DNA of 6,192 bases from Ruminiclostridium sp. (GTDB taxonomy: Bacteria > Bacillota_A > Clostridia > Oscillospirales > Ruminococcaceae). Shown piece after piece: positions 1 to 6,192 of the stretch; positions within the stretch are counted from its first letter, which is position 1, and every line of letters begins with the position of its first letter. The stretch covers positions 1 through 6,192 of the forward strand of contig JAFZOA010000001.1 of the NCBI GenBank assembly GCA_017550775.1, in the 5' to 3' direction. A program made the translations under genes and the position numbers. The notes under the pieces are model-generated. The model was not told where the DNA came from. It made no database searches and saw only the letters and a program-made list of their open reading frames with translations.

Positions 1-279
1 AAGGAGTGCGGTGCCAACATCATCGCGATCACAGACTCGGAAGCCTCCCCGCTCGCCGAGTACGCCGACCAGCTCCTGCTCGCCCGCAGCGACATAATAA
101 GCTATGCGGACAGCCTCGCCGCTCCGCTCAGTCTCATAAACGCCCTTGTAGCCGAGATCGGCATGAGGAACAGCGAAAAGCTCGAAAAGACTCTCGCACG
201 TCTCGAAGACCTCTGGGAGAAGAACGAAGCCTATAAGAAGGACGACGACAATGTTGAGACTACTGTATCTGACGCTTGA
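1..279 (+). CDS. MurR/RpiR-family transcriptional regulator, C-terminal SIS domain (5' end missing)
   Basis: Only the last 92 residues are in the window, read in frame 1 and ending at TGA 277-279. They match the end of a SIS (sugar isomerase) domain as found in MurR/RpiR regulators: a strand plus 'ITDSEASPLAEYAD' (sugar-phosphate pocket side), then 'SYADSLAAPLSLINALVAEI' (the conserved helix that follows in this family), then a charged C-terminal helix with 'LEDLWEKNEAY'. Family members carry an N-terminal helix-turn-helix (outside this window) and change DNA binding when a phosphosugar binds the SIS domain. The last ~13 codons lie over the start of the next gene, so the hydrophilic tail (DDDNVETTVSDA) may have been shaped by that overlap. 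A stand-alone SIS isomerase is the alternative; the 'DSLAAPLSLINAL' pattern favours a regulator. The ligand cannot be told from this fragment. Confidence 0.85.
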   Translation, partial: KECGANIIAITDSEASPLAEYADQLLLARSDIISYADSLAAPLSLINALVAEIGMRNSEKLEKTLARLEDLWEKNEAYKKDDDNVETTVSDA

Positions 280-1588
280 TACGGCGGTACTGACAGGATT
301 CCCGGTACTGTCGCTGCTGGGTCTGTCCGACCTTGCACTGGTGCTCTGCGGGACTGTCCTCGTGATACTGTTCAACCTTGTAAACATCTTTCCCGGAGCA
401 TACGGTAAGGTCTCCATGCGGGTAAAGGTGCTCGCGGGCGGCTGCGACCTTCTCATAGCATTCCTGATCGCGTTCAACGCGGAAGCAGCGCTGCTTATTT
501 ACCGCTTAGTAACCGCCGAAAGATTTGACGACCCGAGCCTGTGGGCAACGGTCACGATCTTTGCCGTTGTCGCAGTCGTTCAGGACAGCATCTGCTTCTG
601 GAACGGCATTATCCGCACATACCTGACTTCCTATCAGCTCGGGATAAAAATGCGCGTGCTCGCGGCGGTATTCGGACTCGTGCCGGTGGTGAACATCGGC
701 TTTCTTGTGGCGATCATCGTGATAACGCGCCGCGAGGTCGTGTATGAGACGCAGTATGAACAGTTTGAAAAGCCCCTTGCCGAGCAGAAGATCTGCGCAA
801 CGAAGTACCCCGTTCTGCTCGTCCACGGGGTCTTTTTCCGTGACAGCAAGATCCTCAACTACTGGGGGAGAGTCCCCGCCGCACTGGAACGCTGCGGCGC
901 TGTGATACGCTACGGGAATCAGCAGTCTGCGCTTTCGGTGGCGGACAGCGCCGCGGAGCTTGCACAGCGCATCGGGGAGGTCGTGAACGAGCTTGGCTGT
1001 GAGAAGGTCAACATCATCGCGCACTCCAAGGGCGGCCTTGACTCGCGCTATGCGGTCTCGCGTCTCGGCGCGGACAAGTACGTTGCTTCTCTCACCACCA
1101 TAAACACCCCGCACCGCGGCTGCGTGTTCGTGGAGAAGCTCTATGACTCGTTCTCGGAGGCAAACCGTGAGCGCATGGCGAAGGCGTACAACTTCGCCGC
1201 GCGCAGGGTAGGGGACAGTGAGCCGGATTTCCTGTCCGCTGTCGCCGACCTTCGTGAGAGCGCCTGCACCGCCATGAACGCGGAGACTCCCGACAGCCCG
1301 GCGGTTTACTACCAGAGCGTCGGTTCCGCGGCGAAGTACGGTTCCAGCGCGCGCTTTCCGCTCAACATCTCTATCCCGTTGGTGCGCAAGACCGACGGTG
1401 ACAACGACGGTCTCGTGTCGGTGGAGTCCATGCGCTGGGGCGAGGATTTCAGGGTGCTGCGCGTGACGGGAATGCGGGGGATCACCCATGCGGATATGAT
1501 AGACCTGAACCGCGAGAACATACGGGATTTCGACGTAAGAAGGTGCTATATCGACATAGTGAGCGAGCTGAGACAGAAGGGCTTCTGA
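251..1588 (+). CDS. membrane-anchored lipase-like alpha/beta-hydrolase
   Basis: 445 residues. The first ~160 are strongly hydrophobic and hold about four to five membrane segments (roughly residues 11-45 as two, 61-87, 98-118, 136-158). The soluble part begins near 185 and has the hallmarks of a bacterial triacylglycerol lipase/esterase: 'YPVLLVHGVFFRD' (186-198, oxyanion region, His192-Gly193), nucleophile elbow 'IIAHSKGGLD' with Ser259, 'TINTPHRG' (283-290), 'DGDNDGLVSVES' with Asp386 as the likely acid, and 'ITHADMID' with His413. All three triad members are therefore present. Substrate is unknown; lipid or another ester at the membrane is the natural guess, and the sequence does not say which side of the membrane the catalytic domain faces. 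ATG 251 is chosen because AAGAAGG (235-241) sits 9 bases upstream. The start lies inside the preceding regulator gene (29-base overlap), which suggests translational coupling and one operon. There is no cleavable signal peptide pattern. Confidence 0.88.
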   Translation: MLRLLYLTLDTAVLTGFPVLSLLGLSDLALVLCGTVLVILFNLVNIFPGAYGKVSMRVKVLAGGCDLLIAFLIAFNAEAALLIYRLVTAERFDDPSLWATVTIFAVVAVVQDSICFWNGIIRTYLTSYQLGIKMRVLAAVFGLVPVVNIGFLVAIIVITRREVVYETQYEQFEKPLAEQKICATKYPVLLVHGVFFRDSKILNYWGRVPAALERCGAVIRYGNQQSALSVADSAAELAQRIGEVVNELGCEKVNIIAHSKGGLDSRYAVSRLGADKYVASLTTINTPHRGCVFVEKLYDSFSEANRERMAKAYNFAARRVGDSEPDFLSAVADLRESACTAMNAETPDSPAVYYQSVGSAAKYGSSARFPLNISIPLVRKTDGDNDGLVSVESMRWGEDFRVLRVTGMRGITHADMIDLNRENIRDFDVRRCYIDIVSELRQKGF

Positions 1589-1616
1589 CCGTATCTGAAC
1601 GGCAATTTTTCCCGGT

Positions 1617-1646
1617 ATGAATAACCCTCTCGGTACTGCATATACT
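1617..1646 (+). promoter_or_regulatory. possible weak promoter ahead of the small helical-protein gene
   Basis: TATACT at 1641-1646 matches the -10 consensus at five of six bases. The hexamer placed 18 bases upstream, ATGAAT at 1617-1622, is a poor -35. A start of transcription near 1653 would leave about 40 bases of leader before ATG 1694. The gene may equally be read through from the lipase gene, as no convincing terminator lies between them. Confidence 0.25.
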
Positions 1647-1677
1647 CCGGGTGCGGGAACGCGGTACGCCGCGCCGC

Positions 1678-1686
1678 AAAGGAGGA
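1678..1686 (+). promoter_or_regulatory. strong ribosome binding site (AAAGGAGGA)
   Basis: AAAGGAGGA is almost fully complementary to the 16S rRNA tail and ends about 8 bases before ATG 1694. It fixes the start of the downstream gene and predicts high translation, notably stronger than the sites of the other genes in the window. Confidence 0.85.
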
Positions 1687-1693
1687 ATATACC

Positions 1694-2128
1694 ATGCTTC
1701 ACAGAAACGATGAGGATATACTGAACACTATCTGCAAGAACAGCCGCATGGCTTACGAGAGCACAGGTCAGGTCATGAGCAGATGCCGCGACAGCCGGCT
1801 CACCGACTATCTCGCGCGCCAGCGAAAGCACTACGCCGAGACCTATTCCGCAGCACGGAAACGGCTCAACGAGGGGAACTCCCGTCCCGAGCCGGTACCG
1901 CCGATGCAGCTTGTCATGGCGCACATCGGTATCGCGGCAAAGACCGCCTTCGACCGCAGCACCGGGCATATCGCGGAGCTGATGTACGATGGCACGAACA
2001 TGGGGATAATCGACATTGCGCGCTCCGTCAACCGCAGCTCCCATGCCGCACCGGAGAATATCCGCCTTGCCGAGAGCCTGCTGTCCGACGAGGAGAAGTA
2101 CGCCGACGGGCTTCGCAAGTTCCTTTAG
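1694..2128 (+). CDS. small all-helical (ferritin-like-fold candidate) protein of unknown function
   Basis: 144 residues with no signal peptide or membrane segment. The sequence reads as four or five amphipathic helices: about 4-28, 33-60, 71-98, 101-114 and 119-143, separated by a Pro-rich turn (EPVPP, 66-70). The best-marked stretch is 'HIAELMYDGTNMGIIDIA' (92-109); I associate this motif with a widespread uncharacterised small protein of clostridia that resembles DUF2383-type four-helix bundles, but this is recall and not a search result. Helices carry scattered Glu/His (Glu9-like acids, His47, His92, Glu95, Glu134), yet no clear paired ExxH di-iron motif is visible, so metal binding is not claimed. 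The start is fixed by AAAGGAGGA 8 bases upstream. A frame on the same strand (1783-2172) and two on the opposite strand also stay open here; the RBS and helical pattern support this frame. Function unknown. Confidence 0.8.
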   Translation: MLHRNDEDILNTICKNSRMAYESTGQVMSRCRDSRLTDYLARQRKHYAETYSAARKRLNEGNSRPEPVPPMQLVMAHIGIAAKTAFDRSTGHIAELMYDGTNMGIIDIARSVNRSSHAAPENIRLAESLLSDEEKYADGLRKFL

Positions 2129-2130
2129 GG

Positions 2131-2155
2131 CGGATAAGGCTGCTGTATCCGGATA
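2131..2155. repeat. inverted repeat and overlapping palindrome (CGGATA ... TATCCGGATA)
   Basis: CGGATA (2131-2136) pairs with TATCCG (2146-2151) across a 9-base loop, and TATCCGGATA (2146-2155) is itself a perfect 10-base palindrome, giving three GGATA half-sites within 25 bases just after the stop codon at 2126-2128. There is no T-run after the hairpin, so it is a weak case for a rho-independent terminator; a regulator binding site is an alternative. It lies about 75 bases upstream of the -35 of the next promoter. Confidence 0.35.
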
Positions 2156-2172
2156 GTATCGCGTTAAAGTAA

Positions 2173-2216
2173 AATTGTTGTAAATACTCTAAAAATTTTC
2201 GTCATAATAAACAATT
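2173..2216. repeat. 7-base inverted repeat in the AT-rich control region
   Basis: AATTGTT (2173-2179) and AACAATT (2210-2216) are exact reverse complements separated by 30 bases, ending 13 bases before the -35 box. In DNA this AT-rich a 7-base match can arise by chance. If real it could be an upstream operator for the cyclic-di-GMP gene. Confidence 0.25.
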
Positions 2217-2229
2217 GCGCTGTAATATG

Positions 2230-2258
2230 TTGACTGTAATTCTGAAATATGCTATAAT
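2230..2258 (+). promoter_or_regulatory. sigma-A promoter for the LacI-GGDEF-EAL gene
   Basis: -35 TTGACT (2230-2235), exactly 17 bases of spacer, and -10 TATAAT (2253-2258) preceded by TGC (extended -10). This is five of six plus six of six to consensus with ideal spacing, in a local AT-rich island. Transcription would start near 2265, giving a leader of about 54 bases. The direct repeat CTGTAAT (2220-2226 and 2234-2240) overlaps the -35 and could be a binding site, though it is short. Confidence 0.85.
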
Positions 2259-2302
2259 ATTTAAGATTATAGGATAGTATTTCTTTCAAACAAATTAATT
2301 CC

Positions 2303-2312
2303 GGATGGGTGG
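2303..2312 (+). promoter_or_regulatory. ribosome binding site that decides a TTG start
   Basis: GGATGGGTGG lies 6 bases before TTG 2319. It contains an ATG (2305-2307), but that frame stops after five codons at TGA 2320-2322, so it is not the start. In the coding frame the upstream stop is TAA 2262-2264 and no ATG or GTG occurs between it and TTG 2319. The next in-frame GTG (2346) would cut into the first beta-strand of the ligand-binding domain, and the first in-frame ATG lies beyond 2680. TTG 2319 is therefore the only sensible start. Confidence 0.75.
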
Positions 2313-2318
2313 TACACT

Positions 2319-5300
2319 TTGATAGAGAATAAAAAGCTGATAGGTGTGTGTCTGACAAGAGTTGAGGACGATTTCAGGACCGAGTTCCTTAAGTTTTTCC
2401 ATAAGATCGCAGAGGAAAACAACAGCAAGATCATCGTTTTCAACAGTCCGCGCGACTTCTATTACGGAGACAAATACGACGAGGGCGCGAAAAGCGTCTA
2501 TAAATTCATAAACTACGACGCTCTTGATGCGCTCGTTATCCTGCGCGAGAGCTTCTACGACGAAGAGCTTGTCAACGGCATCATACGCAGCGCGACGGAT
2601 AAGGGAAAGCCTGTTGTTCTCGTACACGGAAGGCATGACGACTGCTACTGCATCGAGACGGACTATGTCGACGCGTACAGAGCTATGCTCGACCACCTTT
2701 TCGGTATCCATGACATCAAAGATCCCGTCTTCATAGGCGGTAAACCGGAGAATGACGAACAGACCGTGATACGGCTCGGCATATACAAAGAACAGCTCGA
2801 AAAGCACGGCCTTGTATATACCGACGATATGCTGTATTACGGCGATTACTGGGATGTCCCCGCCAAAAAAGCCGTCCGTGAGATCATCAGGAAACGTGAC
2901 AGGATCCCGGATGCGTTCGTCTGCGCCAACGACACCATGGCTATGGCGGTGTGCGAGGAGCTTAAAGCACACGGGATGATTGTTCCCGAGAACGTTAAGG
3001 TCACCGGCTTCGACGGGCTTGTGAGCGCGGAGTACTATCTCCCGCGCCTTACCACCTGCCGCGAGGATATCGGTGCGCTCACTAAGCTTACCTTCGATAT
3101 CATTGAAGACGCCATAGCGGGGAACGTCGAAAAGGGCGTTTTCATTGAGAAGTTCGTTCCGTTCATTGGTGAGTCCTGCGGCTGTCAGAGCGAAGCGGTC
3201 ATCGATTACCGCGAGAGGGCAAGGGAAGTCTTTCTCTTCAACCTTGAGACCCGCCAGCACGAGACTCACATCTATACATGGGTAGACAGCGTCCTTGACA
3301 GCGACAGCCTCAATACGCTGAGCATTGCTCTGCGGGACTACATTCTCCCCAATTCAAGCGTATGCCTTAACGAAGGCTTCATCATGACCGCACTCGGTCA
3401 GTCCGCCGAGAAAGTGCGCGAGTCCGCATACGGAGAGTTCATCGTCATCTCCTCAAAGACTACCGAATACTCCGGCGGCAAGCAGGGGCGTTTCCCGCTC
3501 AGCGAAATGATACCCGATCTGAATGTATGGCTCGGAGACAGTACGATGTGCGTTGTTTCGCCTATCACCGTCGGTGAAGAATCCTGCGGAACCTACGTCG
3601 TGATGATAGACGATATCACATACACATCTCACAAGCTGTTCAGAGTATGCAAGACTATGAACATAGCTTTCGGTGCGCTTCTCAACCGCCTGAACAACCG
3701 CAATATGCAGACAAGCATGATAAGCGCCCGTTTCACCGACCAGCTCACCGGACTCCCGAATCATAAGGGACTCACCAACTGGTTCAACGAGTTTGCCGGC
3801 AAGGAGAAGAACCATAACCGTACCGTCATGGTCTCGGTCTACAATATCCCGCAGTACCGCTTTATTTACGAGAACTACGGTATGGACGACATCGAGGAAG
3901 CCGTGCGCTTCATAGCCGACGCCCTGCGCCTTGCGAACAAGGACAACGGCTACATTGCAAGAACCGGCAATGACGAGTTCGTGGTGTTCAACTACGCCGC
4001 AGACGATAAGGAAGCCGGCTCGGTCATCAACAACGCGGTGTCGGTATTCTACGGTATAATCGAGGGATACAACAAGAGCAGCAGCAAGGACTACTACATA
4101 GAGGTCAACTGCGGCTGTACCGTTGCGAGTGCCGGCTGGAACAGCGACCTCTCCACGTTCATAAAGCTTGCCAACGCCGAGGTCTATATGAACAGGCTGA
4201 AAGCGGGCATTTCCCCCGTTCTCAAGGACGAGAAGATCCACCCCGCGGCTGCGCCCAAGGACAACAAGGATCTGTACAACGAGTTCACGGTCCTGATAGA
4301 AAAGAACCTCTTCACTTACTTCTTCCAGCCTATCATAGATGCGCGCACCGGCGATATCGTGGCGTATGAGGCGCTTATGAGGACCTGCGGCGGTATCCAG
4401 ATGTCCCCGCTCCAGATACTTGAAATAGCAAAGGAATACAACAAGCTCTACGATATAGAGAAGGCGACGATGTTCAATGTCATGGACAGATATGTTCGTG
4501 ATATGGAGAAGTTCGCTGGCGCAAAGGTGTTCATAAACACGATCCCCGGCAACTTCCTGAAGCAGGATGATATCTCCGTCCTGCGCGAGAAGTACGGACA
4601 GTACATCTCAAACTTTGTCTTTGAGATCACCGAGCAGGATACCGTTTCCGACGACAAGTTAAGCTCTATCCGAAGTCTCGGCGTTATAGGCAATACCGAT
4701 GAGTTCCGCGGTATCGCCGGCGGTCAGATCGCGGTAGACGACTACGGCACAGGACATTCCAATATCGTGAACCTGCTCAGATACGCGCCGCACATCATCA
4801 AGATCGACCGCTTCCTTATCAGCAATATTCAGAACGACCTCAACAAGCAGATGTTCGTCAAGAGCACCATAGAGTTCGCCAAGATGAACAACATCAAGGT
4901 GCTCGCGGAGGGCGTTGAGACCTTCGAGGAGATGAAGACCGTCATCGAGTACGGCGTTGATCTCATTCAGGGCTACTACACATCCCGTCCCGCAGAGGAG
5001 CCGGTAGGGCAGATACCCGATGCGGTTCGCAACGAGGTGATAGCCGAGAACATAAGCCTTACGCGAATGGACAACGAGCATCTTGTTTACCGGGCAAAGG
5101 ACGGCGATGTAGTCAACCTTGTGGAGCTCGCGGTCGGCAAGTACAGCCGGATAGATGTTATCGGCGGCACAGTTCGCGTTATCGGTACGGAAAGCCAGCT
5201 CTTCGAGATCGAGATCAGGATCGAAGAGAACGTGAACACCTGTGTCATATTCGAGAATGTCCGGATAAAGGCAATAGACGGACCCGCGATACGAATAGGA

Positions 5301-6192
5301 CGCGGAAGCAATGTCGAGCTGCGTCTCAAAGGCTCGAACTTCATTCAGAAAAACGGTATCTACGTTCCGTCGGGCTCGTCGTTCCGCACGACCGGCGACG
5401 GAGATCTGCTGCTTGATATCAAGCGCAACGGTAGCGTCGGCATCGGAAGCCTGATCGACGAGACTTTCGGTATCATTTCTTTTGAGCATACCGGCTCCAT
5501 AAGTGTGGAGATCCAGCTCGACAGGGGCATCTGCATAGGCGGCGGAATCTCCGACAACGCTTCCATTACCTTCGTAAGCGGTAAGGTAAGTGTTCTTGCG
5601 CAGTGCGTAAACTCCATAGGCATAGGCTGCGTCAAGGGCAAGGCGGACATAACCGTAATGCACGACGCTCTGGTAGTCTCCAAGTGCAGCGGCAGATGTT
5701 CCGTCGCGATCGGCGCATCTGACGGCGAGCTTCGCATCACCTCCACCGGTACTATCGACGCGGTCTCCGACGGTGAAGTATGTGCAGCGGTGGGAACTAC
5801 CGGCTCCGGCGATGCTCATATCTTCATCGAGGACGGCGACGTCAAGGCCGTGGTGCACAGCTCGAAGGCGGTATGTCTCGGCACTATCGAGGGTACTGCC
5901 GATGTCAATGTCATAGACGGGCACGTCTTTGCCTACGGCGAGGGAGACATGGTCTGCGGCTACGGAAGCACACAGGGTACGGGTACCACGCGGGTTTCCG
6001 GAGGTACGGCTGCGGTGAAGATACTTTCCGGCTGCATACTGCAATTCGGCTCCGATCACTGCGCGGCGATATTTACCGGCGGTAACATCATCGCGGACAA
6101 GGAGGAGCTTGTGGCAGCTATCAATGAGACCGGCGAGCCGCTTCACCCCGAACGTCCCGGCGGCGACAGCGTCGAGCGTGAAATATCCACGC
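2319..6192 (+). CDS. ligand-sensing cyclic-di-GMP phosphodiesterase (LacI-type sensor, GAF-like, degenerate GGDEF, EAL) with C-terminal beta-helix; 3' end missing
   Basis: I read 1291 codons without a stop from TTG 2319 to the window edge. Residues 5-284 are a LacI/periplasmic-binding-type sensor ('CANDTMAMAV', 'VKVTGFDG' with GFD at 230-232) ending in 'ESCGC' (285-289). There is no helix-turn-helix. About 290-467 is a helical linker plus a GAF-like region. The GGDEF domain (about 468-640) starts with 'DQLTGLPNHKG' (474-484), but its signature is GNDEF (550-554), the first metal Asp is Asn509, the substrate Asn is Tyr517, and no RxxD inhibitory site is present, so cyclase activity is unlikely. 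The EAL domain (about 655-900) is intact: EALMR (684-688), Asn740, Glu769 in 'FEITE', DDYGTG (807-812), Lys828 and Asp830, Glu864 in 'AEGVET', Gln884 in 'QGYY'. It should hydrolyse cyclic-di-GMP. From about 905 on is a repeat-built beta-helix. No signal peptide or membrane segment is seen, so the protein is probably cytoplasmic. The ligand is unknown. Confidence 0.9.
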   Translation, partial: MIENKKLIGVCLTRVEDDFRTEFLKFFHKIAEENNSKIIVFNSPRDFYYGDKYDEGAKSVYKFINYDALDALVILRESFYDEELVNGIIRSATDKGKPVVLVHGRHDDCYCIETDYVDAYRAMLDHLFGIHDIKDPVFIGGKPENDEQTVIRLGIYKEQLEKHGLVYTDDMLYYGDYWDVPAKKAVREIIRKRDRIPDAFVCANDTMAMAVCEELKAHGMIVPENVKVTGFDGLVSAEYYLPRLTTCREDIGALTKLTFDIIEDAIAGNVEKGVFIEKFVPFIGESCGCQSEAVIDYRERAREVFLFNLETRQHETHIYTWVDSVLDSDSLNTLSIALRDYILPNSSVCLNEGFIMTALGQSAEKVRESAYGEFIVISSKTTEYSGGKQGRFPLSEMIPDLNVWLGDSTMCVVSPITVGEESCGTYVVMIDDITYTSHKLFRVCKTMNIAFGALLNRLNNRNMQTSMISARFTDQLTGLPNHKGLTNWFNEFAGKEKNHNRTVMVSVYNIPQYRFIYENYGMDDIEEAVRFIADALRLANKDNGYIARTGNDEFVVFNYAADDKEAGSVINNAVSVFYGIIEGYNKSSSKDYYIEVNCGCTVASAGWNSDLSTFIKLANAEVYMNRLKAGISPVLKDEKIHPAAAPKDNKDLYNEFTVLIEKNLFTYFFQPIIDARTGDIVAYEALMRTCGGIQMSPLQILEIAKEYNKLYDIEKATMFNVMDRYVRDMEKFAGAKVFINTIPGNFLKQDDISVLREKYGQYISNFVFEITEQDTVSDDKLSSIRSLGVIGNTDEFRGIAGGQIAVDDYGTGHSNIVNLLRYAPHIIKIDRFLISNIQNDLNKQMFVKSTIEFAKMNNIKVLAEGVETFEEMKTVIEYGVDLIQGYYTSRPAEEPVGQIPDAVRNEVIAENISLTRMDNEHLVYRAKDGDVVNLVELAVGKYSRIDVIGGTVRVIGTESQLFEIEIRIEENVNTCVIFENVRIKAIDGPAIRIGRGSNVELRLKGSNFIQKNGIYVPSGSSFRTTGDGDLLLDIKRNGSVGIGSLIDETFGIISFEHTGSISVEIQLDRGICIGGGISDNASITFVSGKVSVLAQCVNSIGIGCVKGKADITVMHDALVVSKCSGRCSVAIGASDGELRITSTGTIDAVSDGEVCAAVGTTGSGDAHIFIEDGDVKAVVHSSKAVCLGTIEGTADVNVIDGHVFAYGEGDMVCGYGSTQGTGTTRVSGGTAAVKILSGCILQFGSDHCAAIFTGGNIIADKEELVAAINETGEPLHPERPGGDSVEREIST
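5220..6110 (+). repeat. protein-level tandem repeats, predicted right-handed parallel beta-helix (residues ~968-1264 of the phosphodiesterase)
   Basis: After the EAL domain the protein becomes a series of short beta-strands broken by Gly/Asp/Asn turns. An 'IG/VG/LG' anchor recurs at Gly1043, 1074, 1103, 1132, 1159, 1188 and 1216, so spacing is 27-31 residues. The typical unit is: IG, four to five variable residues, G, small residue, x, I, x, V, x, x, G, x, V, x, A/V, then a polar turn and a short hydrophobic strand. An earlier, less regular part (about 968-1030) contains 'FENVRIKAIDGPAIRIGRG' and 'NGIYVPSGSSF', a pattern I know from beta-helix carbohydrate-binding or surface proteins of Firmicutes. 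The DNA copies have diverged, so the repeat is clear only in protein. The last clear unit ends near 1240-1264, followed by a Pro/Gly-rich hydrophilic stretch (1272-1284) that runs to the window edge. Confidence 0.7.

Follow-up and report, generated by a model that had tools for sequence, protein, structure and literature searches.

Enzymes of cyclic di-GMP (c-di-GMP) turnover are usually understood through their N-terminal sensors. YkuI carries a PAS-like domain C-terminal to its EAL domain, bactofilins (PF04519) are cytoplasmic beta-solenoids and, to our knowledge, the GGDEF-EAL phosphodiesterases PA0575, MorA and DosP end without a beta-helix. An excerpt of PMC6712302 describes Cthe_2159, the namesake of the beta-helix family PF14262, as binding celluloses and polygalacturonic acid. 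We analysed a stretch of 6,192 nucleotides from Ruminiclostridium sp. (GenBank assembly GCA_017550775.1, contig JAFZOA010000001.1, positions 1 to 6,192 of the forward strand), hereafter the window, the main gene of which encodes an EAL phosphodiesterase domain followed by a predicted beta-solenoid tail.

The computations supported the fold of the tail, its occurrence as a family, its near-strict linkage to EAL, a single cluster in the EAL tree, an intact active site, kinship to exported beta-helices and a conserved edge. The explanation to which we give a roughly even chance is that the tail is a cytoplasmic beta-helix platform, related to exported ones, that binds a putative partner or ligand and positions or tunes the phosphodiesterase; we infer both the binding and the effect on hydrolysis. 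The main gene (2319-6191, + strand) is an open frame of 1291 residues running past the 3' edge of the window, with the following features:

2319..6191, +: whole open reading frame, 1291 residues, TTG start, 3' end beyond the window
2340..3131, +: LacI-type periplasmic-binding-protein-like sensor domain, residues 8-271 (PF13377 E 2.9e-16, PF13407 E 8.8e-9)
3174..3722, +: region between sensor and GGDEF (middle region), residues 286-468, without a match in Pfam
3735..4193, +: GGDEF domain, residues 473-625 (PF00990 E 9e-13), GNDEF at 550-554
4287..4991, +: EAL phosphodiesterase domain, residues 657-891
5031..6191, +: beta-solenoid tail, residues 905-1291 (387 residues), a short helix and then the solenoid
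5142..6098, +: rungs of the solenoid, approximately residues 942-1260, each turn 27-31 residues long, with anchors from Gly1043 to Gly1216
5601..5942, +: ladder of conserved edge residues, a single position from each rung (Q1095, S1124, D1151, H1180, E1208)
6144..6191, +: first part of the C-terminal cap, beginning near residue 1276 and cut off by the window edge

Fold and repeat pattern of the tail

AlphaFold2 gave a confident beta-solenoid for the EAL domain and tail of the window (pLDDT 89) and likewise a beta-solenoid for the full tail of the closest complete relative (pLDDT 93, pTM 0.90), in which the C-terminal cap corresponded to strands 372-409 of the tail. The tail of this relative had 410 residues versus 387 in the window; the missing 3' end is short, and the surplus in the relative is the end of the C-terminal cap.

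A preliminary description of this DNA had staked its reading on a predicted solenoid and on the region belonging to no described EAL-associated family, and both held: the solenoid was predicted confidently, and no Pfam or NCBIfam model matched the window tail above cut-off. The coordinate that it gave for the start of the tail, 5030, is out of frame, and the in-frame start is 5031. The anchor glycines were exactly as claimed (1043, 1074, 1103, 1132, 1159, 1188 and 1216; spacing of 31, 29, 29, 27, 29 and 28), although the label 'IG-anchored' fitted only four of the seven literally, the remaining ones being VG, LG and YG. When the tail was shuffled, a chain of hydrophobic-Gly pairs at a spacing of 27-31 matched the real length of 8 in 7 of 20,000 shuffles; with I, V or L ahead of Gly, the chain of 6 was equalled in 25 of 20,000. 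Across 68 tails, each of the seven anchor glycines was at least 85% conserved, and 29 of the 31 conserved columns were glycine, proline or core residues. Judged by its sequence, the tail is a domain family without a curated model that matches the member in the window.

The EAL domain and its linkage to the tail

PF00563 matched residues 657-891 (E 4.3e-43; 147.8 bits against a cut-off of 31.3) and the catalytic residues E684, N740, E769, E772, D807, D808, K828, E864 and E867 were kept, bearing out the earlier account of the EAL domain as complete. Among 67 aligned EAL domains, the window's included, the EAL, N, ExTE, DD, K and E positions were retained in 66-67 domains per column, the exceptions being one gap in each of three columns and one E replaced by D. 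The phosphodiesterase is active-looking, with an intact active site. The GGDEF domain of the window read GNDEF and thereby failed the GG(D/E)EF signature, which was variable in the relatives (GNDEF, GSDEF, GNEEF, ATDEF and others); its diguanylate cyclase activity appears doubtful. As claimed earlier, no membrane segment or signal peptide was visible in the 1291 residues, since the highest 19-residue Kyte-Doolittle mean was only 1.19, and no signal peptide was seen at the LacI-type sensor domain. The lack of an export signal, and the fact that enzymes of c-di-GMP turnover act in the cytoplasm, make it probable that the protein is cytoplasmic.

The protein had initially been regarded as a single odd case. 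The EAL-solenoid fusion is real, but it belongs to a family with several N-terminal architectures: a sensor with GGDEF, a sensor without GGDEF, a membrane segment together with GGDEF (P0022) or just a short N-terminus. A search with the full-length protein including the tail returned 26 proteins, the window's own among them, all with an EAL domain (26/26). The tail-only profile returned 12 proteins, nine with EAL and three without, two of the latter (P0038 and P0039) lying on 1.4- and 1.0-kb contigs. Starting from a 912-residue member, 360 proteins were found; EAL was present in 120/120 among the matches listed, many of which bore the name Ruminococcus sp. The EAL domain ended 10-38 residues ahead of the tail match in 66 of 67 non-redundant tails; in the remaining one (L115), the frame ran off the DNA 29 codons ahead of the match. 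EAL and tail stay paired while N-terminal parts change, a linkage that is near-strict.

Whole-genome searches found the tail in all nine genomes behind the named loci, with 2-4 copies each. These loci came from Ruminiclostridium, Ruminococcus, Mageeibacillus and uncultured Clostridia; stomach compartments of deer or goat were the source of four. In samples that each included the genome of locus L007, the tail was present at E <= 1e-20 in 61 of 297 genomes of its family and 13 of 391 of its class, and strong tail matches occurred in 12 of 295 genomes of its order. Named tail-bearing members included Ruminiclostridium, Ruminococcus and Oscillospiraceae.

For a careful EAL tree, 66 tail rows were thinned to 37 (many genomes) at 75% identity and combined with 40 EALs without a tail, drawn from eight of the nine genomes; these were the 40 of 50 loci that scored >40 bits with the tail-type EAL model over >180 residues. 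Ten tail-less EAL loci were left out, L155-L161 among them, and EAL proteins of about 850 residues have no place in the tree because their loci failed this filter. The tail label changed once (support 100/99; 100% of 200 bootstrap trees), and a quick tree of 66 tail and 27 tail-less EALs gave the matching outcome of a single tail-bearing side, with long branches flagged and no root inferred in either tree. EAL proteins with the tail extension thus form one group, which had been proposed as a check. The simplest reading would be one joining event, with the N-terminal part exchanged later. With the Pfam EAL model, tail-bearing EALs scored below most EALs without a tail from the same genomes. EAL proteins of about 850-890 residues with low EAL scores (L155-L160; 140-151 bits) occurred in six of eight genomes and are perhaps a distinct EAL lineage.

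At the matching position, five of the eight relatives printed had a TTG start (L001, L002, L003, L007 and L009) and two further ones a GTG start (L004 and L008); the weak start codon of the window gene is conserved among relatives. Relatives of the middle region sit directly ahead of EAL in members of about 1120 residues, and the region is a possible sensor domain without a name. Upstream lies a 144-residue gene (1694-2128, +) that matches DUF2383 weakly (E 0.01, under the cut-off) and is conserved ahead of the same gene in L001, L002, L003 and L009 (67-74% identity). The window begins with the end of a truncated gene (1-279), followed by an alpha/beta hydrolase gene (251-1588, +; PF02089/DUF676-like) with a hydrophobic N-terminal half.

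Kinship and possible role of the tail

The preliminary description had noted that beta-helices of this look are known mainly from secreted proteins; the nearest relatives of the tail outside its own family do look exported, by profile matches and signal peptides. With hhalign, tails (66 of 68) aligned to PF14262 segments (14 of 15) at 94.2% (E 1.1e-7 over 163 columns), the Cthe_2159 alignment spanning only the N-terminal half of the tail (tail columns 38-203). Of 15 PF14262 proteins chosen independently, a hidden Markov model (HMM) of the tail matched three at E <= 0.01 (best 8e-7); at E <= 10, it matched none of eight bactofilins and none of seven PF13229 proteins; 7 of 460 shuffles reached E <= 10, none under 2.8. 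A Pfam scan of 15 tails found PF14262 in two (best E 8.1e-6; next-best family 0.026). PF18889 (Beta_helix_3/AGIGGG repeats; cut-off 27 bits) had no match in the window tail and only sub-cut-off matches in exported relatives (three of five scanned). The tail HMM also weakly matched EAL-less proteins in 8 of 295 genomes of the order of L007. The weak exported matches (L041-L049) came from the tail model itself, the PF14262 set being the independent test. Signal peptides were judged by eye to be present at the start of L041, L042, L046, L048 and L049, the others running off the locus. GIGGG-type repeats occurred in L041-L044 and L049, another repeat in L045 and L047, a Cthe_2159 domain in L048, and Cthe_2159 plus S-layer-homology domains in L046. 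The tail has the right-handed beta-helix fold of the Cthe_2159 family, of which its profiles indicate that it is a distant relative. We did not file it under PF14262 because it falls short of the cut-off and, with no hydrophobic segment in the window protein, lacks the exported location. Cysteine made up 2.44% of tails versus 1.27% of exported domains (p 2e-4), which would suit a reducing cytoplasm.

In the 1300-residue subfamily (17 proteins), positions 4-9 ahead of each anchor were more conserved than the positions elsewhere (1.04 versus 1.63 bits, p 1e-4, for a stripe picked after inspection that ranked fourth of 24 six-residue windows, the best of which overlaps it). The ladder on this edge comprised Q1095 (16/17), S1124 (15/17), and D1151, H1180 and E1208 (17/17 each). 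Its D, H and E were kept in nine rows of the 780-residue type, E1208 was retained in the 870- and 920-residue types, and the 912-residue type had N1066, R1180 and E1208 in 120/120. Such a combination of a constant scaffold and an edge particular to the subfamily is the pattern expected of a recognition surface. Docking surface and second ligand-binding surface, both suggested earlier, survive as candidate roles with some support from the conserved edge.

We propose that a non-catalytic beta-helix, related to the Cthe_2159/'AGIGGG' kind that is normally exported by these bacteria, was joined to an EAL phosphodiesterase, probably once, and retained in the cytoplasm. Placed a short link after EAL, the tail would present a conserved polar edge at which a partner protein or a ligand could bind, and such binding would most likely position the enzyme or alter its activity. 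Exchangeable N-terminal domains would supply a second input, here a LacI-type sensor and a variant-signature GGDEF that would feed into the EAL domain with its intact active site.

Several points weigh against this proposal, beginning with the choice of the stripe after inspection. The outward facing of the edge is deduced from strand alternation, the ladder was weak or missing in the types of ~1120 and ~690 residues as well as in P0024-P0027, and any partner or ligand, like the activity, is putative. Twelve of the 15 PF14262 proteins were unmatched by the tail HMM at E <= 10, the window's own tail had no PF14262 match at E <= 1, the tail in genome G001 scored 18.9 bits for PF14262 (cut-off 25.8), and Foldseek alone found no match in the Protein Data Bank (PDB) at E <= 0.001. 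The third EAL-less protein, P0032 (346 residues, 12.5-kb contig), has a tail. P0032 has 183 cluster members and starts at a methionine that lies inside the longer P0028 type; it could be a fragment or else a genuine free tail.

Alternatively, the tail could keep the job of its exported kin and bind an intracellular carbohydrate, such as glycogen or an acid-sugar oligomer. The enzyme would then read carbohydrate state at either end, with the LacI-type domain taking a small sugar and the beta-helix a larger one. The profile kinship to Cthe_2159, with its binding of celluloses and polygalacturonic acid (excerpt of PMC6712302), the polar D/H/E ladder and the LacI-type N-terminal domain speak for this. 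We nevertheless consider it rather unlikely, given the cytoplasmic setting, edge residues that vary between subfamilies, and an alignment limited to the N-terminal half (tail columns 38-203). Tryptophan is also nearly absent from the tails (mean 0.06%, zero in the window), and such scarcity is unusual for sugar binding. A purely structural part that rigidifies or dimerises EAL and has no ligand of its own would fit the near-strict linkage and short link, a family-wide conservation that is structural only, and the lower Pfam scores of tail-bearing EALs, as if adapted to the tail; the subfamily-specific conserved edge and the tail-less EALs that manage without such a part in the same genomes make it unlikely.

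Polymerisation as in bactofilins was among the earlier suggestions; a tail that polymerises in this way and scaffolds signalling filaments is in our estimate very improbable. The tail is, like bactofilins, a predicted cytoplasmic beta-solenoid, but hhalign against bactofilins of the same genomes gave 0.15% (E 0.39), the tail HMM matched 0/8 of them, and PF04519 was touched by 1 of 15 tails (E 0.55). End-to-end polymerisation is further disfavoured because both solenoid ends are occupied in the window's subfamily, one by EAL and the other by the cap, a point weakened by several other members that end without a C-terminal cap. More speculatively, Ruminococcus-like and allied Clostridia would have kept an exported, carbohydrate-binding beta-helix of the Cthe_2159 kind inside on EAL and diversified its edge into intracellular receptors, a polysaccharide or other ligand along the solenoid (D1151-H1180-E1208 in the window's subfamily) steering c-di-GMP breakdown; we hold this to be improbable.

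Comparison with known systems

A large conserved domain here lies after the catalytic domain and was almost never found without EAL in the sample; its carriers are gut and rumen bacteria related to Ruminococcus. Eight tail-carrying genomes had 14-24 EAL matches each, and no paper joining Ruminococcus, EAL domain, diguanylate cyclase and phosphodiesterase was found in the open-access literature searched, so c-di-GMP signalling seems to have received little study in these gut bacteria. The gain is a domain family that is defined well enough to be named, an edge that is a candidate for binding, and a possible exported fold recruited to the cytoplasm.

No description of an EAL-beta-helix fusion was found in the open-access literature searched. 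With Cthe_2159 (PF14262) and the exported 'AGIGGG' proteins, the tail has the beta-helix and an alignable N-terminal half in common; 4peu and 4phb, which we take to be Cthe_2159 itself, matched a PF14262 protein. Unlike that family, the tail is fused to EAL, has no signal peptide, sits on one EAL lineage, contains about twice the cysteine, and has a PF14262 score below cut-off where one was given, or none. The GGDEF-EAL phosphodiesterases PA0575, MorA and DosP share the EAL fold and catalytic residues with the window protein, which differs in a LacI-type sensor without an export signal. No sequence kinship between bactofilins and the tail was found, and the window protein is a multi-domain enzyme. 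The likeness to YkuI lies in having a domain C-terminal to EAL, whereas the tail has no Pfam match of the PAS-like kind. The window protein belongs to a known class of enzymes and has, at its C-terminus, a nearly obligate and undescribed fold of the exported type.

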